From: a virus
Length of the DNA: 24,995 nt
Strand: one strand, 5' to 3'
IMG/VR virus record: IMGVR_UViG_3300020197_001067
Coordinates: 1-24,995 of that record
The position numbers and the translations under genes are program-made. The notes under the pieces were generated by a model that was not told the origin of the DNA, made no database searches, and worked only from the letters and a program-made list of their open reading frames with translations. The stretch's first letter is position 1. Each line of letters begins with the position of its first letter. This document shows positions 4,598-21,700 of this stretch, piece by piece.

Positions 4598-4605
4598 TAT
4601 TTATG
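4598..4605 (-). promoter_or_regulatory. T4-type late promoter motif (CATAAATA)
   Basis: The minus strand reads CATAAATA, 31 bases before the ATG of the 1002-aa fibre gene. It overlaps the stop codon of the gene upstream. Confidence 0.6.
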
Positions 4606-5806
4606 ATCCAAAGATAACGCTAAAAGCTAAGATAGCCGCATCAACTCCAGGTCCACTTAAACTACCAGAGACATATAGATTAGTTGTAGAGGTTGTCCCA
4701 GATACATTTACATTACCTGTTGCTATTATTGCAGTAGATCCAGATCCAATAGTAACAGTATTTGTGGTACTAAGTCCTACTTTTAATGAATTAAGAGTCG
4801 ATATTCCAGTTATTGCATTAATATTACCAGTTACATTACCAGTTACATTACCAGTTACATTACCAGTTAAAACCCCAGTAATACGTGCATCACCAGTAAC
4901 AATTAATGATGTTGTGGATCCACCAACAACTACAAGGTTGTTAAATGTTGATATTCCAGAAAAACGAGAATTACCTACTACGTCTAATTTTGTTGTTGGA
5001 AGTGTGGTCCCAATGCCAACATTTACGCTAGTATTAATTCCAGAAAGTGCCGTTCTCCATTGAGTACTAATACCAACAGTATCAAAATTAATCAAACCTT
5101 CGTATTGGTTTGCTGGAACAGAGTATGCAATAAAACTAACATCAGTTTTATTTGCTTTTACAACTAAAGTTTGACTTACTCCAATACCAATATTTTCTAG
5201 AACGTATTCTTCTCTTGGATTTAATTTTTGATTGTAAACAATAAAATCATTTGATGAAAATTCTGATACTCCAGAAGAAGAAATTCCTATAAAAAATTTA
5301 CAATCATCAGATACATTTTGATTAATTACTCTTAGAGTAATAACTGAATTTTTATTTGATCTAAACAGTGAAAAATTCTTGTTTATAACGAATCCAGTTT
5401 CTGTTGTGATTCCTGCAAATTCTTTTCCATAAAATGTAGTGATGCCAGTGCTAAAATTATTGTTGTAAACGTTATTGTAATCAAATGTTGATTGCACAAC
5501 AAATCCAACATCTGGCTCAGATGATTTACAAAATAAAATGTCTCCACTTTTAATTCCTACATTATCAATTACAAAAGATTGGTTTCTATCAATTTTTTTA
5601 TTATAAATTAAATAATCTGCTCTTGAAATATTATTTAAACTTCCCGATGCAATACCAACAAAAACTTTACTTGTCTCTAGACTTTGATTAGTAACGTGAA
5701 TCGTTACTTTTGATAAGATTCCAGAAAAAGAATAAAGCTCAGTGTTTTTATTAACACCACCAGTTGTTAAAGATGTTTTTAGTGAAGCAAGTCTTCCTAT
5801 TGCCAC
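4601..5806 (-). CDS. Tail-fibre-like structural protein with TGNV repeats
   Basis: 401 aa. Residues 1-230 hold two related beta domains: the strings SKVFVGIASGSLNNISRADYL and DCKFFIGISSSGVSEFSSNDF repeat the same layout about 140 residues apart. After them comes a phage-fibre type shaft with GIGTTLPTTKLDVVGNSRFS, then the 4-residue repeat TGNV x3 and LNSLKVGLSTTNTVTIGSG, typical of trimeric fibre shafts. The start is GTG at 5806 with no visible Shine-Dalgarno site. A late promoter motif is 24 bases upstream. Inferred to be a distal fibre or fibre-associated protein. Confidence 0.85.
   Translation of the reverse strand: MAIGRLASLKTSLTTGGVNKNTELYSFSGILSKVTIHVTNQSLETSKVFVGIASGSLNNISRADYLIYNKKIDRNQSFVIDNVGIKSGDILFCKSSEPDVGFVVQSTFDYNNVYNNNFSTGITTFYGKEFAGITTETGFVINKNFSLFRSNKNSVITLRVINQNVSDDCKFFIGISSSGVSEFSSNDFIVYNQKLNPREEYVLENIGIGVSQTLVVKANKTDVSFIAYSVPANQYEGLINFDTVGISTQWRTALSGINTSVNVGIGTTLPTTKLDVVGNSRFSGISTFNNLVVVGGSTTSLIVTGDARITGVLTGNVTGNVTGNVTGNINAITGISTLNSLKVGLSTTNTVTIGSGSTAIIATGNVNVSGTTSTTNLYVSGSLSGPGVDAAILAFSVIFGS
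4823..4870. repeat. Four tandem 12-bp units inside the fibre gene
   Basis: ATTACCAGTTAC is repeated four times (4823, 4835, 4847, 4859; the last unit ends in A rather than C). It encodes the TGNV repeat of the fibre shaft on the minus strand. Such a perfect repeat can expand or contract by slippage or recombination. Confidence 0.95.
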
Positions 5807-5871: not shown

Positions 5872-6666
5872 ATGATTTTAGTTACTGGAAGCAAAGGATT
5901 TATTGGGCAACACTTTGTTAGAGAGGCACTATGGAGTCAGAAGTTATATCAAGTAGAGATGAGTCATTGTTTTCAGTTTCTGGAAGAATTTAAAGGTTGG
6001 AATCAGATACATTTAATTATCCATCAAGGAGCAATCTCCAGTACGGTAGAAAAAGATATAAACAAAATTCACAAATACAATGTTGACTTTTCGATCAAAC
6101 TTTTTGAGAAAGCAATCGAATATCAAATTCCTGTTAAATATGCTTCATCCGCTTCTGTTTATGGAAACAAAACAGATGGATCTTTTAATCCACTGAACTA
6201 CTATGCTGTCTCAAAACTCCAGGTTGATTACTGGGTGCAAGATAACATTGATCGTTTTAAAAGTATTCAGGGATTCAGATACTTTAATGTCTACGGCAAA
6301 GGTGAAGAGCATAAAAAAGATCAAGCGAGTCCCGTTAGTAAGTTTACTTGGCAAATCAGAGAAAAAGGATATTTAAATCTGTTCGAAGGGTCAGATAAGT
6401 TTTATCGTGATTTTATTTGTGTGAATGATCTTACTCGTCTTGTTCTTTATAATAAGCAACCTAGTGGCATCTATGACATAGGCACAGGATCGCCTGTGTC
6501 GTTCCAACACGTTGCTGAGTGTGTTACAAAAAAAGAGGGAGGAGACATTCGATATGTCCCCTTCCCTGAGCATCTAGTTGGCAAATACCAAGACTATACC
6601 TGTGCAAATATGAACTGGATTGAGAACTATCCCTTCATCACAGTTGAAGAATATCTCCAGGTATGA
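5872..6666 (+). CDS. hldD: ADP-L-glycero-D-manno-heptose 6-epimerase-like (HldD/RfaD family)
   Basis: 264 aa, short-chain extended NAD(P)-dependent epimerase; HldD is usually about 310 aa. Rossmann motif GSKGFIG at 6-12, HldD-specific HQGAISSTVE at 51-60, catalytic SSASVYG (92-98) and Y111xxxK115, then FRYFNVYG at 135-142 and LFEGSDKFYRDFI at 170-182, and near the end VPFPEHLVGKYQ. All of these line up with E. coli HldD as I know it. Reaction: epimerises ADP-D-glycero- to ADP-L-glycero-beta-D-manno-heptose in the cytoplasm. It is the only plus-strand gene in the window and faces the heptose operon; its last 29 bases overlap the end of the cupin gene. The exact sugar could differ (another nucleotide-heptose or a related sugar). 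AAGGAG lies 13 bases before ATG, which is long. Confidence 0.9.
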   Translation: MILVTGSKGFIGQHFVREALWSQKLYQVEMSHCFQFLEEFKGWNQIHLIIHQGAISSTVEKDINKIHKYNVDFSIKLFEKAIEYQIPVKYASSASVYGNKTDGSFNPLNYYAVSKLQVDYWVQDNIDRFKSIQGFRYFNVYGKGEEHKKDQASPVSKFTWQIREKGYLNLFEGSDKFYRDFICVNDLTRLVLYNKQPSGIYDIGTGSPVSFQHVAECVTKKEGGDIRYVPFPEHLVGKYQDYTCANMNWIENYPFITVEEYLQV

Positions 6667-7003
6667 TTCGATAACTATCCTCATCAAGATGCTGAGTTGA
6701 GAACTCAAACAACTCAGCATCTTCAAGTGCAAGCATTTGATGTCTTAGTCCTCTGGGAACGTGAAACTTATCACCCTTAACTAAGACTAAATGATTTGCA
6801 TTTCCAAAATCATCATTGACTCCATAGTAAAGACGAATTGCTCCAGACTGAACATAAAAAGTTTCATCCTTTAGTTTATGATAGTGATAGGAACATCTCC
6901 TATCCTTAAGAATGAAAAGAAGTTTTCCACAATATTCTTCACTATTGGCAATCCACTTTTCATATCCCCATCCTTTGGGAACAAATTTAATATCTTCAGT
7001 CAT
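6638..7003 (-). CDS. Cupin-domain protein (phosphomannose-isomerase-like C-terminal domain)
   Basis: 121 aa, one cupin barrel. Metal ligands of motif 1 are H40, H42 and E47 (CSYHYHKLKDETF) and motif 2 gives H88 (VPRGLRHQM); the string ELFEFSTQHLDEDSYR is typical of small cupins next to nucleotide-sugar genes. The start GWGYEKWI resembles the type II mannose-6-phosphate isomerase C-terminal domain. It overlaps the oxygenase by ATGA (7000-7003), so it is the last gene of the operon. A role as sugar isomerase or sugar-phosphate binding protein in glycan synthesis is inference; no such short cupin has a fixed activity I can assign. Confidence 0.85.
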   Translation of the reverse strand: MTEDIKFVPKGWGYEKWIANSEEYCGKLLFILKDRRCSYHYHKLKDETFYVQSGAIRLYYGVNDDFGNANHLVLVKGDKFHVPRGLRHQMLALEDAELFEFSTQHLDEDSYRIIPGDILQL

Positions 7004-7602
7004 ACAAAATTAGGTCCTCTGCTCCAACCCACTAAAGTTTTACGAACACCTTTTGTCACAGGTGCTACTCTATGTAGGAGATAAGATGGAAACACAATAA
7101 TTTGTCCTTTCTTTAAGCGATATGATACTGGTTCTGGACCTAACCAAAACTGAAGTTCTCCACCTTCATATTCAGATTCATCATTTAATCCTGCACTGAA
7201 AGAAAGTTTCCTTACGTGCTGTTGCCCGCCACGAACTGATGCATCAATATGCCAAGTGTAATGTCCGTTATCTTCTGCAGGATATTCACTGTACTGAAAG
7301 GACTCAAATCCATATAAAGAATATTTGTAGCAATGATCATTAACGTGAGTTATAATGTTTGATAGTTCTTTATAAAGATAATCAAACTTTTTATCCTCAG
7401 CAAGCCACATTATCCTAGAACTTCTAAGTTCTAAGCTTCCATCATTACCTCTTGGATCAACTGTTCTTCCATCAAGTAATTGATCTTTATGAGACTGAAC
7501 GTAGAATTCTATTTTCGAAATAGTAAGAGAATCTAATTTCTTGATAGACTCAATAATCCAACTTGAGTTATCATCTTCTCGATCAAACGAAAAATATATC
7601 AT
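7000..7602 (-). CDS. 2-oxoglutarate/Fe(II)-dependent oxygenase (prolyl-4-hydroxylase-like)
   Basis: 200 aa. The iron triad is H118-x-D120 (YTWHIDAS) and H177 (SYLLHRVAPV); R187 (GVRKTLVGW) should bind 2-oxoglutarate. The double-stranded beta-helix core spans about residues 95-196, with YEGGELQFW as the usual strand before the second His. Family members hydroxylate proteins or small molecules using O2 and 2-oxoglutarate. GAGGAG sits 6 bases before the ATG, which lies inside the end of the phosphatase gene (20-base overlap). Its place inside a sugar operon suggests it hydroxylates a sugar or a glycoprotein, which is inference. Confidence 0.9.
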   Translation of the reverse strand: MIYFSFDREDDNSSWIIESIKKLDSLTISKIEFYVQSHKDQLLDGRTVDPRGNDGSLELRSSRIMWLAEDKKFDYLYKELSNIITHVNDHCYKYSLYGFESFQYSEYPAEDNGHYTWHIDASVRGGQQHVRKLSFSAGLNDESEYEGGELQFWLGPEPVSYRLKKGQIIVFPSYLLHRVAPVTKGVRKTLVGWSRGPNFV

Positions 7603-7927
7603 CCTTTACTCCTCTATCATCAATATAATAGTCTGCTGCTGGTTTACCCATATGCAGTTCATGAAACTTACAACCCCATGATTTAAGTTGATCAAATGTT
7701 AAGTTGTAAAACTCTTTATGCGCTAACATTCGAGAATTCGAATGTCTACCCATACCTCTAGCGGTTAGATAGATGATTGTATGTCCTTCATCATATAACC
7801 TATTGATTTTTTCTATTCGATCTATCTTAGGCACTGAGTGAGAATAATCTCCATCGTGCAACATATCTTTAGGTTTATCACAGATCGTCCCATCGATATC
7901 GACGCAGTATGTTGACATCTTCATCAT
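7583..7927 (-). CDS. HAD-superfamily sugar phosphatase (GmhB-type role likely)
   Basis: 114 aa, a minimal HAD fold without cap. Motif I DIDGT has nucleophile D10 and D12; motif II is YLTARG (T55); motif III/IV is GKPAADYYIDDRG, with K95 and D103/D104. This resembles the small capsule-type HAD phosphatases. Beside an HldE kinase it would remove the 7-phosphate of heptose-1,7-bisphosphate (GmhB step), but it is much shorter than canonical GmhB (about 190 aa), so the substrate is inference. Three ATG codons are possible (7927, 7924 and 7918); MSTYCVDIDGT from 7918 would be enough. It overlaps the kinase gene by up to 50 bases. Confidence 0.85.
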   Translation of the reverse strand: MMKMSTYCVDIDGTICDKPKDMLHDGDYSHSVPKIDRIEKINRLYDEGHTIIYLTARGMGRHSNSRMLAHKEFYNLTFDQLKSWGCKFHELHMGKPAADYYIDDRGVKDDIFFV

Positions 7928-8666
7928 TTAATACGTAGGTTCCTGGATGTTGGACAGCAATTGCTGCTGCCTTGTTTGCAAACAGTATAGCATGGTGAAT
8001 GTTATTTGTCATCAGATAATAATAAGTCAGAGCAGCAAGAAAGGTGTCTCCTGCTCCAACAACATCAAATACATTAACTTTATCACCTTTATAAAGTTTA
8101 TCTTTATACAATGCTCCTCTTTCTCCAAGGGTCACAATTAAGTTTTCTGGTCTACCTCTAAGTTTTTTATATTCAGTTTCATTAATTTTAATAAAACAAT
8201 GTGGAGCATCGGGAAGATTTACCTTTTTAGTATCAACAAAAATGGGACACATATAGGTTTCTACAATCTCAAGTAACTTATCAAGAGTCAAAAATCCCTT
8301 ACCGTAATCAGAAACAACTACGGCATCAAAGTTTTCTTCAGGAAGAAATCCACGATAATGTGAAACGATTTCACCATCATCAACTCTTAAAAGGTGATGA
8401 TTATATCGTTGATCAACATATCGCGTTTTAGTAATCTTTTCTTCATTCGTTAAATGAACAACGTCAATATTAAATGATCTAAGATTTGCAAGAACATTTG
8501 CAGACATTCCCATTCTAACTTCTCTTTTTTTAAAGTTAAGAACTGGAACAGGAGATTCTGGATTTAGACGAGTACACTCACCATAAACAAACTCATCAAA
8601 GCAAGTCTCTCCGATCAATAATACTCTGAATGATGTTTGTTGTTGAGAAGTTAGGAATTCGATCAT
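7878..8666 (-). CDS. hldE: HldE N-terminal type heptose-7-phosphate kinase (ribokinase family)
   Basis: 262 aa; matches the kinase half of HldE/RfaE. Motifs in order: LLIGETCFDEFVYG (16-29), RLNPESPVPV (33-42, the HldE signature), a substrate-site Met/Ser/Ala/Asn stretch MGMSANVLANL, VVSDYGKGFL (117-126), VTLGERGALY (178-187) and the catalytic VVGAGDTF (202-209, anion hole GAGD, base D207). It phosphorylates D-glycero-beta-D-manno-heptose-7-phosphate at C1. The bacterial kinase domain is about 315 aa, so it is a compact version. Its first 71 bases overlap the adenylyltransferase gene. GGAG lies 12 bases before ATG. Substrate inferred from motifs and neighbours. Confidence 0.93.
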   Translation of the reverse strand: MIEFLTSQQQTSFRVLLIGETCFDEFVYGECTRLNPESPVPVLNFKKREVRMGMSANVLANLRSFNIDVVHLTNEEKITKTRYVDQRYNHHLLRVDDGEIVSHYRGFLPEENFDAVVVSDYGKGFLTLDKLLEIVETYMCPIFVDTKKVNLPDAPHCFIKINETEYKKLRGRPENLIVTLGERGALYKDKLYKGDKVNVFDVVGAGDTFLAALTYYYLMTNNIHHAILFANKAAAIAVQHPGTYVLNDEDVNILRRYRWDDL

Positions 8667-9006
8667 AAAAAATTAACTCCTTTGCAAATTGAGATCCTAT
8701 AATTTCTTTGCCTTTCCAATCAGATCCTACTACCATTACATCTGGGCTTACTCGATGAACAAGATCCTCCAATCCATCATCACTTAAGAATGTGACCACC
8801 TCATCAACTGGTCGAAGATTAAGAAGCAAAAACATTCTTTCACGTTCATTGTGAATTGGTCGTCCTGGACCTTTGAGTTCCTTCACTCGACTATCAGCAT
8901 CTAGACCAACGACAAGATGGTCTCCCTGTTGCCTGGCAAAATTCAGTAAATCGATGTGACCTACGTGAACTAAATCAAAAGTTCCGTTAACAAATACTTT
9001 TTTCAT
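8596..9006 (-). CDS. hldE: HldE C-terminal type heptose-1-phosphate adenylyltransferase
   Basis: 136 aa, nucleotidyltransferase of the HxGH superfamily. HVGH (14-17) sits in VNGTFDLVHVGH, followed by GLDADSRVKELKGPGRP (35-51) and the HldE signature STTNII (122-127). It joins a nucleotide (ADP in E. coli HldE) to heptose-1-phosphate. The nucleotide cannot be told from sequence: related HxGH enzymes use CTP. In E. coli both activities are one protein with the kinase first; here they are two proteins, in the reverse gene order, with a 71-base overlap. It starts with ATGA overlap with the carbamoyltransferase. Confidence 0.93.
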   Translation of the reverse strand: MKKVFVNGTFDLVHVGHIDLLNFARQQGDHLVVGLDADSRVKELKGPGRPIHNERERMFLLLNLRPVDEVVTFLSDDGLEDLVHRVSPDVMVVGSDWKGKEIIGSQFAKELIFYDRIPNFSTTNIIQSIIDRRDLL

Positions 9007-10748
9007 AGTTGATTTGGTACTGTAATTAACTTATTAATTTCGGGAAGATAAAGATACTTTATTTCACTATATCTTAATGTTCTGAATGCATCATCAATAG
9101 TTTCTACAATAGTATCTCCAGCAAGATTAAATGATGTGTTAAAAAGAACAGGCACTCCTGTCATTTTATGAAACTCAGAGATTAGGTCATAGTAATTTTT
9201 ATTCTGCTCTCTCTTAAGAGTTTGCACTCTACAAGTTCCATCAACGTGTGTGATGGCAGGAATTTCTTTTTGTTTTTCTGGTAATACATCAATAGCATAC
9301 ATCATATATGGACTTTCGTCAAGTCTATCCATATCAAACCATTCTTTAGAATGTTCGTATAAGACAGTTCCAGCAAAAGGTCTAAAGTATTCTCTCTTCT
9401 TAACTCGATTTACAATATTTTTTCCATCAGGATGACGTGGATCAAACAGAATCGAACGATTGCCCAATGCTCTTGGTCCTGCTTCAGATCTTCCCTGTGC
9501 AAGAGCAACAATGTTGCCATCAACTAATAGTTGTGCAACTTCTGCAGGGATAACTTCTCTTTCAGATTCTCCTTCATTCAGTACATAATCATATTTCATT
9601 TGCTGACCAAGATAAAGATCTTTGATTTTTAATTCATTTTGACGTTCTGGATATGCTTTTGATACTAAATTAAAAGCAGCACCCATCGAAACTCCACAAT
9701 CTGCAGAGATTGGCTCCACAAAAAGATTTACATCAGATGGCAAACTCTTAAGTAACTTATAATTAGCAACACAATTTAGAGCGCAACCACCAGATAAAAC
9801 TAAATTTTTGCAATTAGAAATAGTTAATGCTTTATGGCAAAGATGTAGTAGATATTCTTCATATTCTTTTTGGACTTTATGAGCAAAATTTCTTCTTCTG
9901 CGTTCTAGTTCTTCTTCATCTACCTCACCAGGTTTAGCAAGAGTTTTAATATGAGAAATTTCACTGGTGAAATTTAAAATTTCACCAGATCCTATAGGTG
10001 CTCCAACAGAAATATAATCATATGGTTTAAGTGCAACTCCAACATTATCAATGTAATCCATACTCAGGATACCAAATCTTTGCGGAACTCCACCAAGTTT
10101 GGTTAACATAGGTTTGATATTTTTGTCCTCTTCACCATATGGAGCAAGACCCATTGTCTTCCCACATTCCAAACCCTTCCACCCTAACCATTGAGTAGCA
10201 GCAGCATAAATCATTCCAGGACCAATAGTTTGTTTGGGATTAACGTACTTTGGCACTGATAAATTTCTTATACTTTTTACGTTTTCTTTACCTACTATAG
10301 ATTGATATAAAATTTCAGGTTCTGGATTATGAGAATTTCTAACCATTTTAAATATGGTTTCATTCTCTTTACCATAATCATAATCAGATCCAGCACCATC
10401 AAGAACTACAACAACTGCTTCATCAAAATCTGAATGATAGAACGCACAAGAAGCGTGTAATGAATGGTGTGGTTCTGCTTTTCGAATGTCTACAACTTTA
10501 TCAAGACCACACATATAGTCAACGTACTTAATGTACACTGAAGGATCAGTATTTTCATCCCACAGGTGTGTATAATAACAGTAATCTATATGTTTTGTAT
10601 ATTGTTTTATAAGTTGTAAAGCAACTAACGGAATACGATCTTGCTTTTCGTGAGTCAACCTTTCTTCTTCGAGATGAAGGACAACCTCAGTGTCCTTCAT
10701 CAACGTTACTGCAGCATTATGATGAATATGAAATGATAAAAACCACAT
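9003..10748 (-). CDS. Carbamoyltransferase, NodU/TobZ/CmcH family (copy 2)
   Basis: 581 aa, full length for the family. The Kae1-like half has HHNAA (9-13), the metal ligands HHSLH (94-98) and D117 in VVLDGAGSD, GKTMGLAPYG (196-205) and LSGGCALNCVAN (318-329). The C-terminal carbamoyl-transfer half has GRSEAGPRALGNRS (419-432), FRPFAG (455-460) and NTSFNLAGD (537-545). These enzymes use carbamoyl phosphate and ATP to put a carbamoyl group on a sugar hydroxyl. It starts two bases after the stop of copy 1 (TGATAATG), so the two are coupled. Substrate probably the glycan made by this operon; the two copies may act at different positions. Confidence 0.95.
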   Translation of the reverse strand: MWFLSFHIHHNAAVTLMKDTEVVLHLEEERLTHEKQDRIPLVALQLIKQYTKHIDYCYYTHLWDENTDPSVYIKYVDYMCGLDKVVDIRKAEPHHSLHASCAFYHSDFDEAVVVVLDGAGSDYDYGKENETIFKMVRNSHNPEPEILYQSIVGKENVKSIRNLSVPKYVNPKQTIGPGMIYAAATQWLGWKGLECGKTMGLAPYGEEDKNIKPMLTKLGGVPQRFGILSMDYIDNVGVALKPYDYISVGAPIGSGEILNFTSEISHIKTLAKPGEVDEEELERRRRNFAHKVQKEYEEYLLHLCHKALTISNCKNLVLSGGCALNCVANYKLLKSLPSDVNLFVEPISADCGVSMGAAFNLVSKAYPERQNELKIKDLYLGQQMKYDYVLNEGESEREVIPAEVAQLLVDGNIVALAQGRSEAGPRALGNRSILFDPRHPDGKNIVNRVKKREYFRPFAGTVLYEHSKEWFDMDRLDESPYMMYAIDVLPEKQKEIPAITHVDGTCRVQTLKREQNKNYYDLISEFHKMTGVPVLFNTSFNLAGDTIVETIDDAFRTLRYSEIKYLYLPEINKLITVPNQL

Positions 10749-10750
10749 TA

Positions 10751-12433
10751 TCAGTTAGGAACATAAACCAGTTTCTGAATTTCGGGGAGATACATATACT
10801 CAATATCACTGGTGCGAAGAGTCAATAAAGCATCCTCAAGAGTCTCAACGAGTGGATCTCCACCAAGATTAAAACTAGTATTAAAAAGGATGGGAACTTC
10901 AGTGATCTTATCGAAAGCATCAATAAGATTATAGTAATGTTCGTTTTGTTCTGGAGTTACAGTCTGAATGCGGCAAGTTCCATCAACGTGAATTACCGAA
11001 GGAATCTTTTCCTCGACACCATCAAGGCATTTGACAGCGTACATCATGTAAGGAGTTTCTTCACGTCCAGCAAGATCAAACCATTCGTGAACTGCCTCTT
11101 TCTTGATCGAACAAGCAAATGGACGGAACCATTCACGACGCTTCACTGTATTAACGATCTCTTTACCGTTAGGAACAGTTGGATCAAACAGAATCGAACG
11201 GTTGCCGAGAGCACGAGGACCACCTTCAGAACGACCCTGATAGATTGTTACAATATTCCCATCACGAATTAGTTGTGCAACATCATCATAAGAAGTATCA
11301 GAAACTTCATATCCATCAAGTTCATCCAAATATGAGTCAGTATCATACTGAGGGCCATAATAAACAGATGCCTGAGTAGAAGGTTCAGTATTATCAGTCA
11401 GTTGATTCCAAAGATACTTAGCACCACCAATCGAAGTTCCACCATCGTGAGAGATTGGTTCACAGTAGATGTTCAGATCAGGGAACGCTTGCCAGTACTT
11501 ATAGTTTGCAACACAGTTCAGACCATATCCACCACAAACAACAATGTCTGTTTCACCAGTTTCTTCATATGCTCTCTGAATCAACTGAATCATACGATTT
11601 TCAGTTGCTTCCTGAACAGCATATGCCATATCTTTTTGGATCTGAGTATATTCACCTTTTTTATGATTCGCAACATCATCTCTCAGAATTGGAAAACGAG
11701 TTGTATTGATGCGAGCAGCGTTAGGATATGTTGGAATAATCAGTTCACGATTGCCCCACTCACCACTAAAGAAAGGAGGAAGTTCAGGATTCGGAGATCC
11801 ATAAGGAGCAAGACCCATCAGTTTACCTGCCTCAATAGCAGGGAAACCACAATACTCAGTCACTGCCTCATACATTTTTGTATGACCAGGATACTCAGTT
11901 GCAAAAACATTAGGTTGAGTTTCGTGGCATCCAATAGAAGCTTTGGTTCCTAGATGCTTGTAAACGATCTCAAAGTTTTTTGGATAAGATGCTTTAAAAA
12001 TAGTCTCAAACTCATAGAAGGTATCATTAACACCATCCATCTGTAAGAAACTACCTGCACCATCTGCAATTACACAGGCAGCAGACTCAAATCCTGAGTT
12101 ATAAAATCCACAAGCAGCGTGCATCTCGTGGTGAATTGTATCAATAAAATGAGTCTCAAAATCAAATTTCTTTCGAGCGATCTTACGAATCAATCCCTGA
12201 TAAAGATCATCACCACACCAGTCAAGAACTGGTCCGTGACGATGGGTATGGCAAACTACAAGATGATCAATATGGTCAACGTAATCGAATACTTTAAGAA
12301 GTCCCATCAAGGGAGATCCATCGTACTTAAAGCGAGAGAGTCTTTCTTCCTCAAGATAGAATACAATCTCACCATCAACCATAAGCGTGGTGCTTGCATT
12401 GTGACCACGAGCACAAGAAACGATAACGGTCAT
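10751..12433 (-). CDS. Carbamoyltransferase, NodU/TobZ/CmcH family (copy 1)
   Basis: 560 aa, same domain layout as its downstream paralog: GHNAS (10-14), metal ligands HHEMH (101-105) and D124 in IADGAGSF, GKLMGLAPYG (203-212), CGGYGLNCVAN (300-310), GRSEGGPRALGNRS (400-413), FRPFA (436-440) and NTSFNLGGD (518-526). By eye the two copies share their key motifs but differ over much of the rest, so they are old duplicates rather than a recent copy. ATG at 12433 has a good AAAGGA site five bases upstream. Expected activity: carbamoylation of a sugar hydroxyl from carbamoyl phosphate and ATP; the acceptor is unknown. Confidence 0.95.
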   Translation of the reverse strand: MTVIVSCARGHNASTTLMVDGEIVFYLEEERLSRFKYDGSPLMGLLKVFDYVDHIDHLVVCHTHRHGPVLDWCGDDLYQGLIRKIARKKFDFETHFIDTIHHEMHAACGFYNSGFESAACVIADGAGSFLQMDGVNDTFYEFETIFKASYPKNFEIVYKHLGTKASIGCHETQPNVFATEYPGHTKMYEAVTEYCGFPAIEAGKLMGLAPYGSPNPELPPFFSGEWGNRELIIPTYPNAARINTTRFPILRDDVANHKKGEYTQIQKDMAYAVQEATENRMIQLIQRAYEETGETDIVVCGGYGLNCVANYKYWQAFPDLNIYCEPISHDGGTSIGGAKYLWNQLTDNTEPSTQASVYYGPQYDTDSYLDELDGYEVSDTSYDDVAQLIRDGNIVTIYQGRSEGGPRALGNRSILFDPTVPNGKEIVNTVKRREWFRPFACSIKKEAVHEWFDLAGREETPYMMYAVKCLDGVEEKIPSVIHVDGTCRIQTVTPEQNEHYYNLIDAFDKITEVPILFNTSFNLGGDPLVETLEDALLTLRTSDIEYMYLPEIQKLVYVPN

Positions 12434-12446
12434 ATCAATCCTTTAA

Positions 12447-13619
12447 TTAATTTTTAACAGTGTCTAGAAATCCAGATGGTTTTTTACCATTACTTTTAAT
12501 ATTACCTGATGATTTAATCAATTCCTCAACGGCACTAGTTTTTTTAGGGATGTCCATTACTGGACTTATTGCTTGTGAAACCTCAGATGCTCCTTTAAAT
12601 TGAGGTGCTGATTGTTGTGGATCACATCCTTGAGGACCACATTGTTGATTTGGAAGAACGATTACCTCTTCCTTTTTAACATAAAACTTTTTCATCAACT
12701 TATCAACACTCTCAACAACCACATCTTCGATTTTTCCATTCATTGCCATTATACCATCATTATTCCTGAATGTCACTTCGTCGGCAGTAATACGAATAGG
12801 ATCGTAAATACGAAGTCCTTCACCCATATCAAGAACCTCAAACTTATCACAGTTGGGATAACTGATATTTTCTTTACAAGTGGATCCAACAACTACTACA
12901 GCAGGAACTTCTTGAGAATATGCAATGTGTTGTCCAACAGAATCACACCCAAGAAGAAGATCTGCCTCAGCAATAATTGCTGCCCATTGCCTCAGATCAA
13001 TTCCTGCAGGAGTCGCAACGGGATCTTTACAACCTTCTTTCGAAAGGTCAATACTAAACTCACTCATAAAGATTACTGCATAACCTTTCTTTTGGAGTTT
13101 CTTCACAATCGAAAGAACATTCGCAAGTTCGAAACTTCTACCGCCAGCGTCAGTAATGAAGTTACCCATCATCTGAGCACCACGCCCGAATGGTTGGAAA
13201 ACTACAACCTTACTTTTTTTAGTTGCTTGGCGAACTTCTTCGAGAACAAACTTTGCCTGAATCATTTCTTGGCGAGAAAGTTTAATCGATGGTTTTGGAA
13301 GTTCTCTAACTCCTTTATTATTAATCTGAATATCAAATGCTTGACTCAGATTGCACTTTTGATTATAATATTCCCAGATACGATATGGTTCTGTTGTAAC
13401 CACATTACGCATTTGAATATGACTTCTAAACAGGTCTTTATGCCAGTTATCGTACACTCTGGGATAAAGATCTGTATGTCCCTTAAAGAAATCTGTTCCA
13501 CCTTCAGCAACAATAATAAAGTCGTCTTCGGGATGTTCTTCTTTATATTTCTCAAATGCTGGAATTGAGCAAATGACACGCCCAGCTCCGCCGTTTACAA
13601 AAAACGCAGTCGATCTCAT
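12447..13619 (-). CDS. GT9-like (heptosyltransferase-type) glycosyltransferase
   Basis: 390 aa, GT-B fold of the ADP-heptose:LPS heptosyltransferase kind. GGAGRVICSIPAFEKY (9-24) is the N-terminal motif, then FQPFGRGAQMMGNF (161-174) and the donor-site stretch ADLLLGCDSVGQHIAYS, followed by VPAVVVVGST. Residues after about 325 form a disordered, Lys/Ser/Gln-rich tail with NQQCGPQGCDPQQSAPQF. It should transfer a sugar from an ADP-heptose-like donor; acceptor unknown. First gene of the operon; the ATG has a CGAGGCGAG ribosome site, and two overlapping promoters lie upstream. Other GT9-fold roles are possible, since the donor-binding residues are not fully diagnostic. Confidence 0.85.
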   Translation of the reverse strand: MRSTAFFVNGGAGRVICSIPAFEKYKEEHPEDDFIIVAEGGTDFFKGHTDLYPRVYDNWHKDLFRSHIQMRNVVTTEPYRIWEYYNQKCNLSQAFDIQINNKGVRELPKPSIKLSRQEMIQAKFVLEEVRQATKKSKVVVFQPFGRGAQMMGNFITDAGGRSFELANVLSIVKKLQKKGYAVIFMSEFSIDLSKEGCKDPVATPAGIDLRQWAAIIAEADLLLGCDSVGQHIAYSQEVPAVVVVGSTCKENISYPNCDKFEVLDMGEGLRIYDPIRITADEVTFRNNDGIMAMNGKIEDVVVESVDKLMKKFYVKKEEVIVLPNQQCGPQGCDPQQSAPQFKGASEVSQAISPVMDIPKKTSAVEELIKSSGNIKSNGKKPSGFLDTVKN

Positions 13620-13744: not shown

Positions 13745-14713
13745 TTATTCTTCTACTGGTGCAACCTTTGTCCAATCTGGCATTCCAGGCATTCTTCCTG
13801 CTTCTTCATCAGTTTCATTCTCAGGTGGAATAACGTTAAAAACTGCTGTGGTTCCCATTGCAACACGTGTTCCTAATTCACCTTCATCAACTCTCTCGGT
13901 TGGAGAAGAAACTATGATATAAGCACCCTTATCATCAGTTACTAACTGACCTTCATTAACAACTTTTGCTTCAGGATCTGGAGGTGGAAGATTTCCAGAA
14001 TCAGGGTCTCTGTTGACAAAATTTGGCCATTCTGGATTAAGTCTTGGATCGTCTGGGAATGGAACCATCCAAGGAGTATCTAACCAAGCACCAAATTTAG
14101 TTGGAACCTTTTGCAATTCTGCAACAAAATTATCCCACTGTTCTCTTTGGTCTTCAGTCCACTTATTTTGATCATAATGTCCCTGAATTTGAATAGCATC
14201 TTCAATAGTTACTTTGTAATTCCACTCAAACTCTTGTCTGATGATGTGAGGAATTTTCCATGGATATGGTTTTTTCCATCTTTTTAGTTTAAGATCATAT
14301 TCACAATCAGCAATCTCGATTGTGTGATCTGGAACTGTGGGATGAGGTCTTTCATAAAACAGTTCTTTTGTTTCTGGATGAAGATACTTTTTAGTTGGAA
14401 GATCTTTCATCTCAGGTGCAAGTTGTGCAATCGCAGATAAAAGAAGAGGATCATCGTCAAAAGTAATCAGAGCTGGATATGAATTAAATCCAGTATACTC
14501 TTCTAAAAACTCATATTGTGTTTCAGGATTTTCATCATCATACTCTCTAAATGATTCTCTTGCTAGAATCTTATTAGTTTTATAATCAACAAAAACCCAA
14601 ATTTTTTCTGGACCATCATAGGTCCACTGCGCTTTTAAACCTAGAGTGCTTTCATTCGAAAGATACTCATCTGGTAAATCGTATTGAAACGCTTTACGAA
14701 TATGCTTAGCCAT
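13745..14713 (-). CDS. Virion-associated protein with a tail-assembly-chaperone-like segment
   Basis: 322 aa, acidic and rich in Pro, Trp and Glu; no membrane segment. Residues 190-250 (WTEDQREQWDNFVAELQKVP, then LDTPWMVPFPDDP) look like the phage tail assembly chaperone pattern (W..yr..L..iP....WP..P; Pfam PF16778), which is usually encoded next to a fibre gene. The first half (PDEYLSNESTL, AQWTYDGPEKIWVFVD) and the Pro/Asp-rich linker before the C-terminal domain do not match anything I recognise. It follows the three Cys-rich fibre genes in one operon and is closed by a terminator. A role in folding or attaching those fibres is inference; it may be structural itself. Confidence 0.75.
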   Translation of the reverse strand: MAKHIRKAFQYDLPDEYLSNESTLGLKAQWTYDGPEKIWVFVDYKTNKILARESFREYDDENPETQYEFLEEYTGFNSYPALITFDDDPLLLSAIAQLAPEMKDLPTKKYLHPETKELFYERPHPTVPDHTIEIADCEYDLKLKRWKKPYPWKIPHIIRQEFEWNYKVTIEDAIQIQGHYDQNKWTEDQREQWDNFVAELQKVPTKFGAWLDTPWMVPFPDDPRLNPEWPNFVNRDPDSGNLPPPDPEAKVVNEGQLVTDDKGAYIIVSSPTERVDEGELGTRVAMGTTAVFNVIPPENETDEEAGRMPGMPDWTKVAPVEE

Positions 14714-14734
14714 AAGTAAATTTACACTCCTGTT

Positions 14735-14742
14735 TATTTATC
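14735..14742 (-). promoter_or_regulatory. T4-type late promoter motif (GATAAATA)
   Basis: GATAAATA on the minus strand, 22 bases before the ATG of the 322-aa gene, overlapping the stop codon of the upstream gene. Confidence 0.55.
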
Positions 14743-15691
14743 AAATCCAGTTAACAGTAATTCTAGCAGCTCCTGCTCTTCCAGCAGTTCCACAGCAACA
14801 GTTATTAGATCCACATGTTGCACCAGATCCACCAGGGAATCCAGGAACATATCCTGTCCTATCACCACCACCGAAACCAACTGAATTCATAGCACCGCAT
14901 GTAGCAAAATATGAACATGTTACATTTTCACACACTGGAACAGAAACATGTCCACCTTGCTCATTCACCAATCCACCAGGATAAGCAAAGTGCATACGAT
15001 TCATTTCTCTACATTGTGTCCACTGATAAAGAGTTGCTGCGCTTGGTAATCCAAAAGCACCATAATCAGCACCAAAATAAAGAGCGCAACACCCAGTACA
15101 AGCAGTTCCAAATCCAGCAATACCAAAACATCCACCATATGCTCTTTGCTCACATCCTGCAGCGGGGCCGCCCATTGCAACAATCCATTCACTACCATAA
15201 CCAAAACATAAATGACAATATGTACATCCAGGGAATCCACCATCTGCACAGAAATTAGAAAGACCTGATCCCGTAATAAATGCTTTACAACCTCTATTTC
15301 CAGTATCACCAGGGACTCTACAAGCAATTCCACCAACGCAAATATTATAAGCAGTCCCAGAAGCAACACCAGTAACTGTTTTGCGAGCATAAGCACCAGC
15401 ACCACCAGGAACACCAATCATACAGCAGCAAGCGCCTGCGCCGCCGCCACCACCTCCCCAGATTTCAAAGGTGATTACAGTGGTTCCAGTGCCTGTAGGT
15501 GATCCAGGAACTCTCCAGCACTGATATTCCGAACCCATACAAGTATATGAAGTGTCAGCGGCATCACATGATCCGCACCTATGCATCATAAACCAGGTGG
15601 ATTGACCTTGTCTCAAATTACCAATACCACCAGAATAAATTCCTACAAGTTCGGTACTTTGTGTTCCTAATAAGTTTCTAAGATTAGACAT
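14741..15691 (-). CDS. Cys/Gly-rich fibre/adhesin-like protein (paralog 3)
   Basis: 316 aa with 27 cysteines by my count (about 8.5%). N-terminus MSNLRNLLG, shared in kind with the two upstream paralogs. At about residue 74 begins FEIWGGGGGGAGACCC, then GCKAFITGSGLSNFCADGG near 133-151, and a C-terminal Gly-rich domain (YVPGFPGGSGATC, NCCCG, GRAGAARITV). Gly-rich domains of this sort occur in tail-fibre tips and in the T4-type gp38 adhesins; the very high Cys content is not part of those families. No signal peptide. A late promoter motif lies 25 bases upstream. Predicted location: virion surface, by context. Function not known. Confidence 0.8.
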   Translation of the reverse strand: MSNLRNLLGTQSTELVGIYSGGIGNLRQGQSTWFMMHRCGSCDAADTSYTCMGSEYQCWRVPGSPTGTGTTVITFEIWGGGGGGAGACCCMIGVPGGAGAYARKTVTGVASGTAYNICVGGIACRVPGDTGNRGCKAFITGSGLSNFCADGGFPGCTYCHLCFGYGSEWIVAMGGPAAGCEQRAYGGCFGIAGFGTACTGCCALYFGADYGAFGLPSAATLYQWTQCREMNRMHFAYPGGLVNEQGGHVSVPVCENVTCSYFATCGAMNSVGFGGGDRTGYVPGFPGGSGATCGSNNCCCGTAGRAGAARITVNWI

Positions 15692-15715
15692 TCTTTGTTT
15701 CGCTCTCTTATAGGA

Positions 15716-15723
15716 TATTTATC
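15716..15723 (-). promoter_or_regulatory. T4-type late promoter motif (GATAAATA)
   Basis: GATAAATA on the minus strand, 25 bases before the ATG of paralog 3, overlapping the stop codon of paralog 2. Confidence 0.55.
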
Positions 15724-16774
15724 ATTTAAATGTAATTTTGACCAGTCCTCTTGATCCACGCCAACCATAGCAGCAAGGACCACCACAAGAAGTTGCTGAT
15801 GGAGCACCTTGCCCCCACATACCTCTTCCACAAACATCTCCAGTCATTTCACCCCAGATACAAGAACCAAATTCATTAATACAAGAATTACCCTCATTTT
15901 TCACTACAACGTGCCTTGTGCATTGGTCACGAACTCCACCAGGCTGTGCAATTCCAAGACAAACCCAGCAAGTGTCTCCACAAGCACAGTTTACGCGGAA
16001 CCAACCAAGTTTTCCACCAACGTGATAGTCTCCACCATATCCACAAGCACAATCACACCAGAAAAATCCGTCAGGTGGGAAAATATAACAACCAGGACCA
16101 CCACCAACAGTTGTATTTGTTGCTGCTGATCTTAATTCGTGAGCACTACAAGCAGGCCCATATGTTGGAGATGATCCACCAGAATACCATACAAAGCAAC
16201 AAGTCTTACCAGGAAGTCCACCCTCTGCACAGAAGTTTGATAATCCGCAACCAGTGATGTATGATTTACATCCACGAATACCAGTGCAACACTGTGAGCA
16301 GCAAGTTGGAGGACCAACAAATACAAGATAGCAGAATCCACCTAGTGTTCCACCAGGAAAATCACATCCTCTTATAGTCTTACGTGCATAAGCACCAGCG
16401 CCACCAGGATTGCCTTGTTGGCAGCAACAAGCGCCGCCGCCTGATCCACCACCACCCCAGATCTCAAACGTAATCTGAGAGGTTCCAGGCATCGCACAGA
16501 ATGCTTGACACCAGCGGTTATAGTTTGCATTACAGTTTTCATTCCAACAATGTCCACCCCAGAACATTGTGAAACCATCTGGTTTATATGGTCCCCAAGC
16601 AGTTGCCCAAGAAGTGTTTACATCATTATGATAGATATTACCACCAATTCCTTTTTGTGGTGGATCAACCGAATGTTCCGCTCTTCTTGTAATTGTACTT
16701 GCCAATCCAGTCAGAGCATTACGTCTGAGGAGGTTAGAATTTTCAGTGTCTGTTAAACGTCTTAAATCTGCCAT
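15722..16774 (-). CDS. Cys/Gly-rich fibre/adhesin-like protein (paralog 2)
   Basis: 350 aa with 34 cysteines by my count (about 9.7%, the highest of the three). N-terminus MADLRRLTDTEN. FEIWGGGGSGGGACCC begins near residue 103, followed by GNPGGAGAYARK and GCKSYITGCGLSNFCAEGG, then Cys clusters such as CCSQCC and CDCACG. The C-terminus ends GSRGLVKITFK, a typical last strand of Gly-rich fibre domains. It follows paralog 1 after 11 bases, with GAGGT before the ATG and no promoter of its own, so the two are probably one transcript. Likely virion surface protein; Cys could form disulfides or bind metal. Confidence 0.8.
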   Translation of the reverse strand: MADLRRLTDTENSNLLRRNALTGLASTITRRAEHSVDPPQKGIGGNIYHNDVNTSWATAWGPYKPDGFTMFWGGHCWNENCNANYNRWCQAFCAMPGTSQITFEIWGGGGSGGGACCCQQGNPGGAGAYARKTIRGCDFPGGTLGGFCYLVFVGPPTCCSQCCTGIRGCKSYITGCGLSNFCAEGGLPGKTCCFVWYSGGSSPTYGPACSAHELRSAATNTTVGGGPGCYIFPPDGFFWCDCACGYGGDYHVGGKLGWFRVNCACGDTCWVCLGIAQPGGVRDQCTRHVVVKNEGNSCINEFGSCIWGEMTGDVCGRGMWGQGAPSATSCGGPCCYGWRGSRGLVKITFK

Positions 16775-16785
16775 TTTTGTTTACC

Positions 16786-17961
16786 TCATCCGTATGTAAT
16801 CTGAATCATTCCGCTGCCACCAGGTCCACCACAGTAGCAGTTATTACCACCAGTAGACGATGCACTCTTTCCACCAAATCCAGGTATATATGTATGGTGA
16901 GCATCATCAGACCCTTCACCACCACTTTGGAATCCCATCAGTGCTTTTGCGTGTTGATGAATACCTTGATAACCAGCGTTGTTCATATCCCATCTTGGAA
17001 TTGCAACCCATCCACCACGAGTATTAATCAAACCACCAGGATAAGGGTGAAGATCAGTGATCATACACCATTGACCAGCATCTTGATTATATGGAGAAGT
17101 GATCATTCCAGGTAGTCCATGTGCTCCACCATCAGCACCATAGAAAGGAGCACAATATGCCATTGGTGAGAAACAAGCGCCACCAAAACAATGATTGACT
17201 GGATGTCCTAAGAAGACTTCATTACAACAACTTAAATAAGTATTACCTTTATTATTAAATAATTTGGAATAAACAGAAACCTCAGGAAGTGCATCAGATA
17301 AGTAAGTTGCTCTTTGACCGATGCCGCCGCCTGGAGAAAAGCACGAATGCCCACAAATTAGATAATGAGGTCCACAAAAGAAGTCACAAGCCATCAATTT
17401 ACCCATCATAAAGTGACCAGCACCATCAGCACGGGTAAAAGCTGAAGAACAAGGGCTATAATCATTATTCCAACAGAAGCAACAACCATGTGATAATGCA
17501 CAGTGTGTCATCCCCCCCATACCACCTTCGGCACAGAAGTTACAAAGACCGTGCCCTACGATATATGATTTGCAACCTTGCTGTCCAAAATGATTTCCGT
17601 GTGGTAGGCAACACTGTCCTGTACCTAAACAAAATTCATAAGGACAACCAGTCAAATCACCATATTGCTCTGCACACAGAATTTTAAATGCATGAGCACC
17701 GCTCCCTCCAGGACCGCCCCACATGCAGCAACAACTACCACCACCAGATCCACCAGCTCCCCAAATCTCAAACTTAATAAAGCGAGTTCCTTTTGGAGCC
17801 TTCCACTTCATTGATGAATACTGGGGTTGATGGTTTACAGCACAATGCGTCATATAACGAATCTGCTTGTACTGAGAACCAATACGAGATGTAGTTAATC
17901 CTACGACCTGTTGGAAGGTAGTTGTATCAGCGTATGCGATTAAATCTCTTAGGTTTGCCAT
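16786..17961 (-). CDS. Cys/Gly-rich fibre/adhesin-like protein (paralog 1)
   Basis: 391 aa with 29 cysteines by my count (about 7.4%). N-terminus MANLRDLIAYADTT. FEIWGAGGSGGGSCCC begins near residue 64, then GCKSYIVGHGLCNFCAEGG, and a loop-rich centre holding His, Cys and Met (THCALSHGCCFCW). It ends GGPGGSGMIQITYG. The ribosome site AGGAGGAG is strong. No late promoter right upstream: it follows the 111-aa gene after 34 bases, so it likely shares that transcript. As for the other two paralogs, the fold is Gly-rich fibre-tip-like and the Cys content is unexplained. Confidence 0.8.
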   Translation of the reverse strand: MANLRDLIAYADTTTFQQVVGLTTSRIGSQYKQIRYMTHCAVNHQPQYSSMKWKAPKGTRFIKFEIWGAGGSGGGSCCCMWGGPGGSGAHAFKILCAEQYGDLTGCPYEFCLGTGQCCLPHGNHFGQQGCKSYIVGHGLCNFCAEGGMGGMTHCALSHGCCFCWNNDYSPCSSAFTRADGAGHFMMGKLMACDFFCGPHYLICGHSCFSPGGGIGQRATYLSDALPEVSVYSKLFNNKGNTYLSCCNEVFLGHPVNHCFGGACFSPMAYCAPFYGADGGAHGLPGMITSPYNQDAGQWCMITDLHPYPGGLINTRGGWVAIPRWDMNNAGYQGIHQHAKALMGFQSGGEGSDDAHHTYIPGFGGKSASSTGGNNCYCGGPGGSGMIQITYG

Positions 17962-18726: not shown

Positions 18727-21700
18727 TCAAGAGGTAGCAATCCAGTACGCAAATGCTCTTCCACCAAGAGTTTGAGCATCGACATATGTTTTAACTGCAA
18801 ACTCAGTTGGAACTGCAGTATTCGAGTTACCTGACATTGTTCCATCAGCAGAGAATTCACTGATTGCTTCACCAATTTGTCCACCAAGTGAACCCAGTCT
18901 CAGAGAAGTCAGACCCGAAAGATTAAACGCAGAAGCATTCAGAGTTGCACTACCAGTTGCCTGGTCAACAGCAAAGTAATTACCAACTCGGAAGTTACCA
19001 TCTTGGTCAGTGGTTACAAAGTAAACGCGTCCTGGAAATCCTTCGATCGTTTGGTTCCCCTGAATTGGTAACGTAATTGGTTTTGCTGGATAATTAGATT
19101 CTACTCTATTACCAATACCAATCTCAAGGAAATCGTGTCCAGTTAATCTAATTTGACTGTAATCATAACGAATCTTGAGGTCTTGTCCATCAAAGGCTGG
19201 ATTTACCTTCTCAATGTTTGTTCTAACAATTGCTGTACCACGAACAGTATCAACATTAAACGTTACTGCAGCACCTGCAACACCACCAATTTCAGTCCCA
19301 TCAATTGTAAGTTGTTGACCTTGAACATAATTAGATCCTGCAGTAGAAACTCCAAGATTATCAATATATCCTGTTGCACCGATACTTACATTTAAGAATC
19401 CACCAGTTCCAGTTGCACTTCCTGTTACGGCAACGCTTGGATATGTTCCTGTAGCACCAAGTGCTGATTGATGGTAAGTACCAGCATATCCTGCAATTCC
19501 AAACGTTGGAGCAACATAACTTGTTACAAGACTTATAACATATGCATTTGCATCAGATCCAATACCAGCAGTAATTGTTGATCCACTTCCTGCAGCAGGA
19601 CCATAAAGAGTTCCAGAAGTTCTTCTTGTTATTGGAGAGTCCGAAGTCACACCCACAAAACTAATACTTCCACGTGCTTTTGGTTGCTCAGTTAATCCTT
19701 TTAGTGGGAAGATGAATCCTTTAACTCCAGTTACAGCATCAGGATTATTGAGCAATCTTGCAGTTGCTCCTGTTCCAACCATTCCACCACCAATGAAGAT
19801 AACTTCATTTGGTCGGAAGGTTTCCATTCCAACAGGACGATAGAGAACTCTATTTGTAGATGGAATATCAAAAATAATTTTCCCAACTGCTCCAGAAGTC
19901 TCACCAGTGATAGCAGCACCAACAGTAACACCACCACCAACAATAACTAAACCACCAGTTGAATACTCAAGAAGTTCACCGTCAATTGCCGCTGGTTTAA
20001 ATGCTTCACTTTGACTATATCCTAAACTTACAGAACCCCATTCTCCATAAGAATTATTTCCATTCAGAGCACGAATAATACCACCGTTAGTAGCAAGGTA
20101 TCCATAATCACACCAGTAAGTAAATCCAGAAATAATCTCACACTTAGCATTATTATCTACCCAATACCCAATACCATTATCGGAAAGAACTGTGTAAGCG
20201 TGGAAAAGGCAACTCTTAAATGAACTCTGAATTCCAGTATATGCATTGCCATCAATATAAGCACCTATACATCCAGTGCCAATTCCAGTACATTCTTTAA
20301 CGTATGGTGACTTAAAATCAATTGGATTATTATCATCTAGAGTAATATAAACACCAGCTGGAGGATGTCTAAGTGTTCCTGTATCTGCTTTTAAAATATA
20401 TTGCGGATCGCTAGTTGTTTTAGCCCAACCAGTCATTCCTCTAAATGTCATCTCTGACAATGTGTTCGCATTATTTAACTTAAACATTACCCCAGTTGCT
20501 AGACCAGCATTTGCGGGTTCAATAAACACAACTCTTTGTGATGCACCTCTAATGTCTGTAAAAGCAGGGACAGTAATTGGAGTTTGTTCTGAATATACTC
20601 CAGCAGCAACATTAAGAACTGCAGGTGCTAGATTTAGAGATTGTATTTTTTGACAAGCGTATTTAATAGTTGCCCAAGGAGTTTCTGGTGTATTACCCCA
20701 AGTCTCCCAGTCTTGTCCAGTAAGTGCAGAAACATAATAATTATTTGGAGCATTTCCAAAATAATCCCAGATCGGATCTGATCCTGCAGATCTTAAAACA
20801 GTTCCAGTTGATCCAATTCCTAAAGCAATGACACCAGAAGAACTTCTAGTTAATAAATCACCCTGAACTGCAAGAACAGCACTAGCATCACCCTGAGCAA
20901 GTAATCCCCACTTACCTGTTGATGTAGTTGGAAGATTTCCTGTGTTAGAAGATGCAATCGAAACATAAGATGACTGAACGTAACTAACGACGTCGTTTAG
21001 TTGATATTCAGTTGCTGTTGCCCAAGTTCCAGCATAACGAAGACCATTAACAAGGAGTTGGAAATTATCAGTACTTGTAGATCCCAACCCTGCTGGAGTA
21101 CTAATGGCAGAAGTTGATGATGCTGTAGCAACATAAGTATTACCACCATATGTTACAAGAGTTCCATATTCGTATGTTGCATTATTTTGGAACGTTGTAA
21201 CTCCAGCAGTTGAAATACCTGTCGTCATTAAACGCCAGGCAGTACTTACACCAACAGCAGGTCTAATTCCTCTATTAACAGTTCCAGATCCGCCAGTAAT
21301 AATACCGACGTACATACTACCATTGTAATAAACAAAATCTCCATATTCATATTCTTGATCATATACCCATCCACCTTCACCATTATTTCCGCCAACATAT
21401 TCTACAGCATATGTTAAAGTAGCTACCCCAGAAGCAGACTTGTGAGGGAAGGTAACTCTATATTGATGATTTCCGTAAGCAAATACATCGTTAATAGAGT
21501 AAGTTGTTAATCCTACCCAATTGCCTCTATGTCTTAGACCCTCAACGTGAATTTGCCACCTAGGAGTTCCAATATTAAAGTCAGTCGAATACCATAGATC
21601 TTCTCTTGCAGCCGAAGTATGGTTGACTGTACAAACGTATGTATTGCCACCAAGTCGAACAATATCATCAATAACATATGCTGTAGATGGCTGCCATTCG

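Follow-up and report, generated by a model that had tools for sequence, protein, structure and literature searches.

A 24,995-base virus fragment from IMG/VR (record IMGVR_UViG_3300020197_001067; hereafter the window, meaning the whole stretch that was analyzed) holds, at positions 5872 to 13619, a gene module resembling the pathway for ADP-heptose, in which no isomerase of the GmhA type can be seen. The locus raises the question of which gene product could carry out the isomerization and where the activated sugar would go. Our analysis points to a small cupin within the module as the likely sedoheptulose-7-phosphate isomerase, and we infer that the module probably specifies a five-step ADP-heptose pathway. 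Computation established which genes and protein families are present, how the proteins fold, how well their active sites are conserved, and which genes occur together or exclude each other; the catalytic roles given below are predicted from these results. The relatives of the window DNA are T4-like cyanophages, and the fragment probably belongs to a virus of marine cyanobacteria.

Relatives of ADP-heptose enzymes in a nine-gene module

The open reading frames (ORFs) of the window were assigned to families with Pfam, PHROGs, and NCBIfam, with all three in agreement. Nine ORFs lie between positions 5872 and 13619, one on the plus strand and eight on the minus strand. This confirms the claim of an earlier note on this DNA that a heptose kinase, adenylyltransferase, and epimerase, a small HAD phosphatase, a GT9-like transferase, two carbamoyltransferases, a cupin, and a 2-oxoglutarate (2OG) oxygenase all sit in one 7.7-kb stretch.

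Three of the products are recognizable relatives of canonical enzymes. The plus-strand gene (5872..6666) encodes an HldD-like ADP-heptose 6-epimerase (EPI) of 264 residues, with a score of 203.5 bits against TIGR02197 (curated cut-off, 274.6). Its nearest solved structure is Escherichia coli HldD (1eq2; profile E value, 1.5e-68), and alignment to 1eq2 places HldD residues S116, Y140, K144, and K178 at S93, Y111, K115, and K148, which are invariant in 14 relatives. The kinase (KIN; 7878..8666, minus strand) is a short, 262-residue PfkB protein of the HldE kinase type. Its best NCBIfam family is TIGR02198 (126.8 bits; cut-off, 345), its nearest structure in the PDB is HldA (4e84; profile E value, 1.4e-28), and its GAGD motif is invariant. 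The HldE-adenylyltransferase-like protein (NT; 8596..9006, minus strand) matches TIGR02199 best, with 123.2 bits (cut-off, 181.5) versus 71 bits for glycerol-3-phosphate cytidylyltransferase. With these family matches, HldA and HldD as the nearest structures, and the HldD residues conserved, the ADP-heptose pathway proposed in the earlier note is well supported.

The small HAD protein (7583..7927, minus strand) would take the place of GmhB. It matches the EcbF-BcbF family TIGR01689 with 31 bits, under the cut-off, and none of the GmhB models in NCBIfam matched it, so that by family it is not a GmhB-type bisphosphate phosphatase. Its nearest PDB relatives are 9iqw, a "capsule biosynthesis protein," and 1xpj, and it carries the motifs VDIDGTI and YIDDRG. 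In GenBank and PHROGs, this small HAD is labeled "phosphoheptose isomerase" in cyanophage records. Since family and PDB relatives identify it as an EcbF/BcbF-type phosphatase, the label is wrong and the protein is ruled out as the missing GmhA. The same small HAD family, likewise mislabeled phosphoheptose isomerase, adjoins an arabinose-5-phosphate isomerase and a nucleotidyltransferase in T4-like enterophages such as Yersinia phage phiR1-RT (L010:2625-5369), in an arabinose module of the RB69 type. That nucleotide-arabinose module of RB69 and other Tevenvirinae, whose proposed product modifies DNA (PMC6024577), resembles the window's in that this HAD has a sugar-phosphate isomerase and a nucleotidyltransferase as neighbors. 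It differs in that its isomerase is of the SIS type and that it has neither an HldE kinase nor HldD.

A cupin with the active-site pattern of D-lyxose isomerases

The candidate for the first step is a Cupin_2 protein of 121 residues (CUP; 6638..7003, minus strand), proposed on the basis of its co-occurrence with the kinase, its mutual exclusion with GmhA, and its fold and active site. When its AlphaFold2 model (mean predicted local distance difference test score [pLDDT], 95) was searched with Foldseek, the first six matches were all D-lyxose isomerases. The best matches are the D-lyxose/D-mannose isomerase cupins of Thermofilum (TsLI, 7nzo), Bacillus subtilis (2y0o), and E. coli (Z5688, 3kmh). 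In TsLI, the sugar is contacted by K62, H75, H77, K86, E88, H143, E156, and D163, and mutation of the equivalents of K86, E156, or D163 abolishes the activity of the E. coli enzyme (PMC8378251).

Through the alignment to B. subtilis 2y0o and residue spacing, rather than by superposition, these eight positions map to K27, H40, H42, K45, E47, H88, E100, and D/E107 of the phage cupin. The first seven are invariant in 64 relatives, and position 107 is D or E. The four metal ligands of D-lyxose isomerases, three histidines and one glutamate, are thus present as H40, H42, E47, and H88 in a confident model. The substrate-site residues of TsLI, K62, K86, E156, and D163, have their counterparts in K27, K45, E100, and D/E107. 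The conversions of fructose to mannose and of sedoheptulose-7-phosphate to manno-heptose-7-phosphate are alike as C1-C2 isomerizations. The phage cupin differs from the D-lyxose isomerases in being approximately 50 to 100 residues shorter and only 16 to 29% identical, and it would act on a phosphorylated heptose. In PDB profile searches the cupin gave weak matches, quercetinases and oxalate decarboxylases among them; the assignment does not rest on these. The GenBank and PHROG name "cysteine dioxygenase" is supported neither by the active-site pattern nor by the gene context.

Cupin and GmhA in kinase gene clusters of viruses and bacteria

GmhA, the canonical sedoheptulose-7-phosphate isomerase, has the SIS fold. 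No SIS_2 domain was found in the window, and a search of module-bearing relatives, nine of them complete cyanophages and ten of them long viral contigs, turned up neither SIS_2 nor SIS domains. The earlier note had reported GmhA as the one enzyme not seen, and this holds for the window and its nine complete relatives. The isomerase itself, however, is probably not missing, the cupin being the best candidate.

No other gene accompanies the kinase of related viruses as regularly as the cupin does. Of the 54 loci that were retrieved with the kinase as query and have 4 kb or more of sequence on each side, all contain the cupin, 45 the epimerase, and 40 the HAD. To these were added kinase clusters with GmhA but without the cupin, found in a separate scan for viral GmhA. 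The pooled set, dereplicated at 90% kinase identity and restricted to fully flanked loci, comprises 99 clusters, of which 92 have only the cupin, 6 only GmhA, none both, and 1 neither. One virus (L286) offers a close swap: its kinase, HAD, and nucleotidyltransferase are 41%, 48%, and 43% identical to those of the window, and it lacks the cupin but carries a bona fide GmhA (TIGR00441, 178 bits). This swap supports a heptose substrate for the gene set as well as the view that cupin and GmhA are equivalent. In three viral contigs (L170:7250-8038, L172:6314-7102, and L175:749-1531), cupin and adenylyltransferase are fused in a single frame.

A bacterial gene cluster agrees with this picture. A heptosyltransferase-II-like GT9 gene and a true HldE kinase (349 bits, over the cut-off of 345) flank the cupin in Parcubacteria bacterium GW2011_GWA2_37_10 (L110). 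The kinase is followed by an adenylyltransferase-GmhB fusion and HldD (308 bits, over the cut-off of 274.6), and a search of this draft genome found neither SIS_2 nor SIS domains. Across 335 genomes of its class, a close cupin occurs in three, all among the 11 that are HldE positive (hypergeometric P value, 2.7e-5). None of these three has GmhA, which is found in 5/8 of the other HldE-positive genomes.

The module genes also occur in phages P-SSM2, S-CAM1, S-CAM3, S-SSM7, Sf-FS3, S-SM2, P-TIM68, S-T4, and Sf-CH8. Because the block recurs in the first five of these and in many IMG/VR contigs, the module is far from a chance grouping. The earlier note had named neighbors that do not travel together in related phages as fatal to its proposal; here, they do travel together. 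Their order varies (NT-KIN-HAD-CUP, CUP-NT-KIN, or KIN-NT-HAD-CUP). In S-SM2 (L006:357-1565) and P-TIM68 (L009:6582-7727), the heptose genes adjoin a transketolase-like gene, a possible source of sedoheptulose-7-phosphate.

Parts of the set have been noticed before. Sullivan et al. (2010) found T4-GCs 304, 305, 307, and 308 together in three phages and named them LPS (lipopolysaccharide) genes; no pathway was named, and the choice between functional genes and stuffer DNA was left undecided (PMC3037559). These clusters are the same families as the adenylyltransferase, kinase, cupin, and epimerase of the window. The open-access literature yielded no earlier account of cyanophage carbamoyltransferases combined with heptose, or of a cupin as sedoheptulose-7-phosphate isomerase. 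Such silence is weak evidence, and the cupin-as-GmhA assignment appears to be new.

Proposed pathway

In the proposed scheme, the metal-dependent cupin would convert the ketose to the aldose in the role of GmhA (step 1), and the short HldE-type kinase would phosphorylate O1 of the resulting heptose-7-phosphate (step 2). The small HAD would then remove the 7-phosphate (step 3), the HldE-type adenylyltransferase would make ADP-D,D-heptose from heptose-1-phosphate (step 4), and the HldD-type enzyme would invert C6 (step 5). The order of reactions is that of the canonical pathway. The phage set differs from it in using a cupin instead of the SIS-fold GmhA and an EcbF-type HAD instead of GmhB, in having a short kinase and a short adenylyltransferase as separate proteins, and in being phage-borne. 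By strict membership, which includes SIS-type GmhA and GmhB, this is not the canonical ADP-heptose pathway, yet it very likely works like the canonical one. The earlier note had listed the cupin and the carbamoyltransferases as neighbors of the pathway. Both are present, but the cupin is probably no side gene, and the part with GT9 and carbamoyltransferase is not universal in the module.

Possible destinations of the sugar: virion or host envelope

The GT9-like protein (12447..13619, minus strand) is barely recognized by its sequence (22.5 bits against Pfam GT9; cut-off, 22), and a PDB profile search with its family gave chance matches only. Its AlphaFold2 model (pLDDT, 84; the C-terminal 60 residues unstructured) has a heptosyltransferase fold. 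VIA-align Z scores are 24.4 for 3tov, 21.8 for WaaF, 20.4 for TibC, and 19.7 for WaaC; GT9 enzymes span 19.0 to 24.4, and the next unrelated row scores 12.6. The phage protein thus shares the GT9 fold with WaaC/WaaF and with the TibC/AAH autotransporter heptosyltransferases (Z, ~20 to 22), although it is only 10 to 16% identical to them. The comparison supports the suggestion of the earlier note that it is a heptosyltransferase-type user of ADP-heptose.

Both NodU-type carbamoyltransferases have their Carbam_trans_N and Carbam_trans_C domains (PF02543 and PF16861) over the gathering score. CT2 (10751..12433, minus strand) belongs to the main ortholog group, which is near-universal beside the GT9 gene. 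It is 64 to 94% identical to GT9-adjacent copies in closer relatives, and its orthologs occur in P-SSM2, S-CAM1, S-CAM3, and most GT9-bearing loci. CT1 (9003..10748, minus strand) belongs to a second group, found in only a subset of relatives, and is 52 to 76% identical to orthologs sited between CT2 and the nucleotidyltransferase. A recent duplication is ruled out, the two being separate ortholog groups.

GT9 and the main carbamoyltransferase occur together, and their surroundings bear on the acceptor. In the window, the module lies between a tail fiber gene (4601..5806, minus strand; phrog_11338) and a block (13745..17961, minus strand) encoding a conserved unknown protein (phrog_9740) and three tandem Cys/Gly-rich adhesin-like proteins (phrog_4205). 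Homologs of the phrog_11338 tail fiber flank the module in many loci, and homologs of phrog_9740 and phrog_4205 do so in many GT9-bearing loci. Window-type tail fiber or adhesin homologs flank 49/67 loci with GT9 and carbamoyltransferase versus 5/107 loci without them (Fisher P value of ~2e-22, uncorrected for kinship). Because this version of the module sits among tail fiber genes, we favor the virion over the host LPS as the destination, tentatively and at less than even confidence. The GT9-fold protein would transfer the heptose and the NodU-type enzyme(s) would carbamoylate it, with tail fiber or adhesin proteins of the virion as the most likely acceptors. TibC, a protein heptosyltransferase for adhesins, falls within the same fold.

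Host-surface decoration ranks close behind: the ADP-heptose may instead be made for the LPS or capsule of the host, changing receptors or blocking superinfection. Modules without GT9 and carbamoyltransferase are found elsewhere, in glycosyltransferase-rich regions near pstS, phoA, and psbA, and the naming of these genes as LPS genes by Sullivan et al. fits the same destination. A carbamoyl group on heptose would not be without precedent: Pseudomonas WapO carbamoylates the heptose of LPS, acting on the core (PMC8005017). Against the host envelope stand the location of the GT9-carbamoyltransferase version between tail fiber and adhesin genes, in the window as in most such relatives, and the presence of TibC within the GT9 fold. 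The earlier note had offered a glycan on the host surface or on the virion. Both are kept here, with the GT9-carbamoyltransferase version pointing to the virion.

Source of the isomerase and identity of the sugar

Several observations weigh against the pathway as drawn above. The kinase, adenylyltransferase, and epimerase all score under the NCBIfam curated cut-offs, although the heptose family is still the best match for each. The VIA-align Z scores of the cupin, 14 to 15, are tied among several cupins (CapF, KdgF, Pac13, and a phosphomannose isomerase), and therefore the fold alone cannot fix the reaction. The viral loci were gathered by similarity, so that the counts are of non-independent samples. 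Most GmhA-linked viral kinases are distant from the cupin-linked ones, L286 being the single close swap, and one kinase (L309) has neither isomerase nearby. Conversely, the cupin occurs without the kinase in viral loci L063 and L092 and in bacterial loci L102, L103, L106 to L109, and L112. In one bacterial locus, L105, the cupin is accompanied by a divergent SIS protein, which adjoins a second HAD-nucleotidyltransferase. Lastly, the N-terminal motif of the phage GT9 has an invariant arginine, R14, apparently in place of the catalytic aspartate of WaaC (D13), judging from the motif and not from superposition. Because of this apparent replacement, the acceptor or mechanism may differ from that of WaaC.

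Two neighborhoods add detail on the cupin family. In L105, an Acidimicrobiaceae contig from a metagenome-assembled genome (L105:7455-12343), kinase, nucleotidyltransferase, and cupin are followed by the SIS protein, a HAD-nucleotidyltransferase fusion, and an epimerase, that is, two adjoining sugar-activation sets. In Prochlorococcus AG-409-P03 (L106:7582-14631), the neighbors of a close cupin relative are a DegT aminotransferase and a radical SAM/SPASM protein, and genes of the RecA-like and DUF932 types lie nearby; the cupin family therefore has other contexts.

ADP-heptose could also be made with the GmhA of the host, leaving the cupin to act otherwise on the sugar, for instance by epimerizing or tailoring the nucleotide sugar. 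The cupin superfamily contains epimerases as well as ketoisomerases, which, with the tied Z scores, speaks for such a role. The host genomes can be read both ways. A GmhA-like gene of some kind is present in 52/251 Cyanobiaceae genomes, but this is only about one-fifth of the host family as surveyed. The HldE kinase was found in 31 of the 251 genomes, and 29 of these 31 also have a GmhA-like gene; GmhA is therefore the isomerase of host heptose pathways, and most hosts lack both genes. The LPS of marine Synechococcus strains WH8102 and CC9311 lacks heptose (PMC4515613), which likewise argues against reliance on the host; WH8102 is the host of the module-bearing phages Sf-FS3 and Sf-CH8. In addition, the cupin is retained where the epimerase or HAD is absent, never shares a viral kinase cluster with GmhA, and holds the position of GmhA in L110 beside all other canonical enzymes. 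We regard recruitment of host GmhA as unlikely.

Least probable is that the gene set starts from a related ketose phosphate and activates a sugar other than manno-heptose, as has been proposed for arabinose in the T4-like phage RB69, with the HldE and HldD likeness reflecting ancestry only: the missed curated cut-offs and the HAD family's place beside arabinose-5-phosphate isomerase in Tevenvirinae would allow it, but the equivalent of the HldD-specific K178 is kept, the top kinase structure is HldA, the same families are paired with bona fide GmhA in L286, and the cupin is paired with canonical HldE, GmhB, and HldD in L110.

Accessory and neighboring genes

The remaining gene of the module (7000..7602, minus strand) encodes a 2OG-Fe(II) oxygenase (PF13640; E value, 8e-16), which we consider accessory; it is not a constant member, with a homolog close to the kinase in only 9/86 kinase-bearing viral loci. 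The three tandem phrog_4205 proteins (14741-15691, 15722-16774, and 16786-17961, minus strand) look like adhesin tips, and the third has a Gly_rich_2 match slightly under the cut-off. Farther along the minus strand lie a tail fiber protein of 1,005 residues (18727-21744), two stretches of which match carbohydrate-binding module family 5/12 (CBM_5_12), a second 2OG-Fe(II) oxygenase beyond the module (22680-23411), and an HNH endonuclease (24044-24415).

Implications for cyanophage biology

If the cupin is the isomerase, the only gap of a widespread phage pathway would be filled by a new isomerase family. Two misleading GenBank and PHROG labels, on the HAD and on the cupin, would be corrected in many cyanophage genomes, and genes once set aside as perhaps no more than stuffer DNA would become a testable five-enzyme pathway. 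A broader and more speculative picture is possible, in which cupin-type sedoheptulose-7-phosphate isomerases are a new family that has taken the place of GmhA in a few bacteria and in marine phages by the hundreds. In that case, phages whose hosts have heptose-less LPS might build a carbamoylated heptose on their own tail fibers or adhesins, a virion sugar coat made wholly from phage genes. Were the product indeed carried on tail fibers, a phage-encoded glycan could govern host recognition in major primary producers of the ocean.

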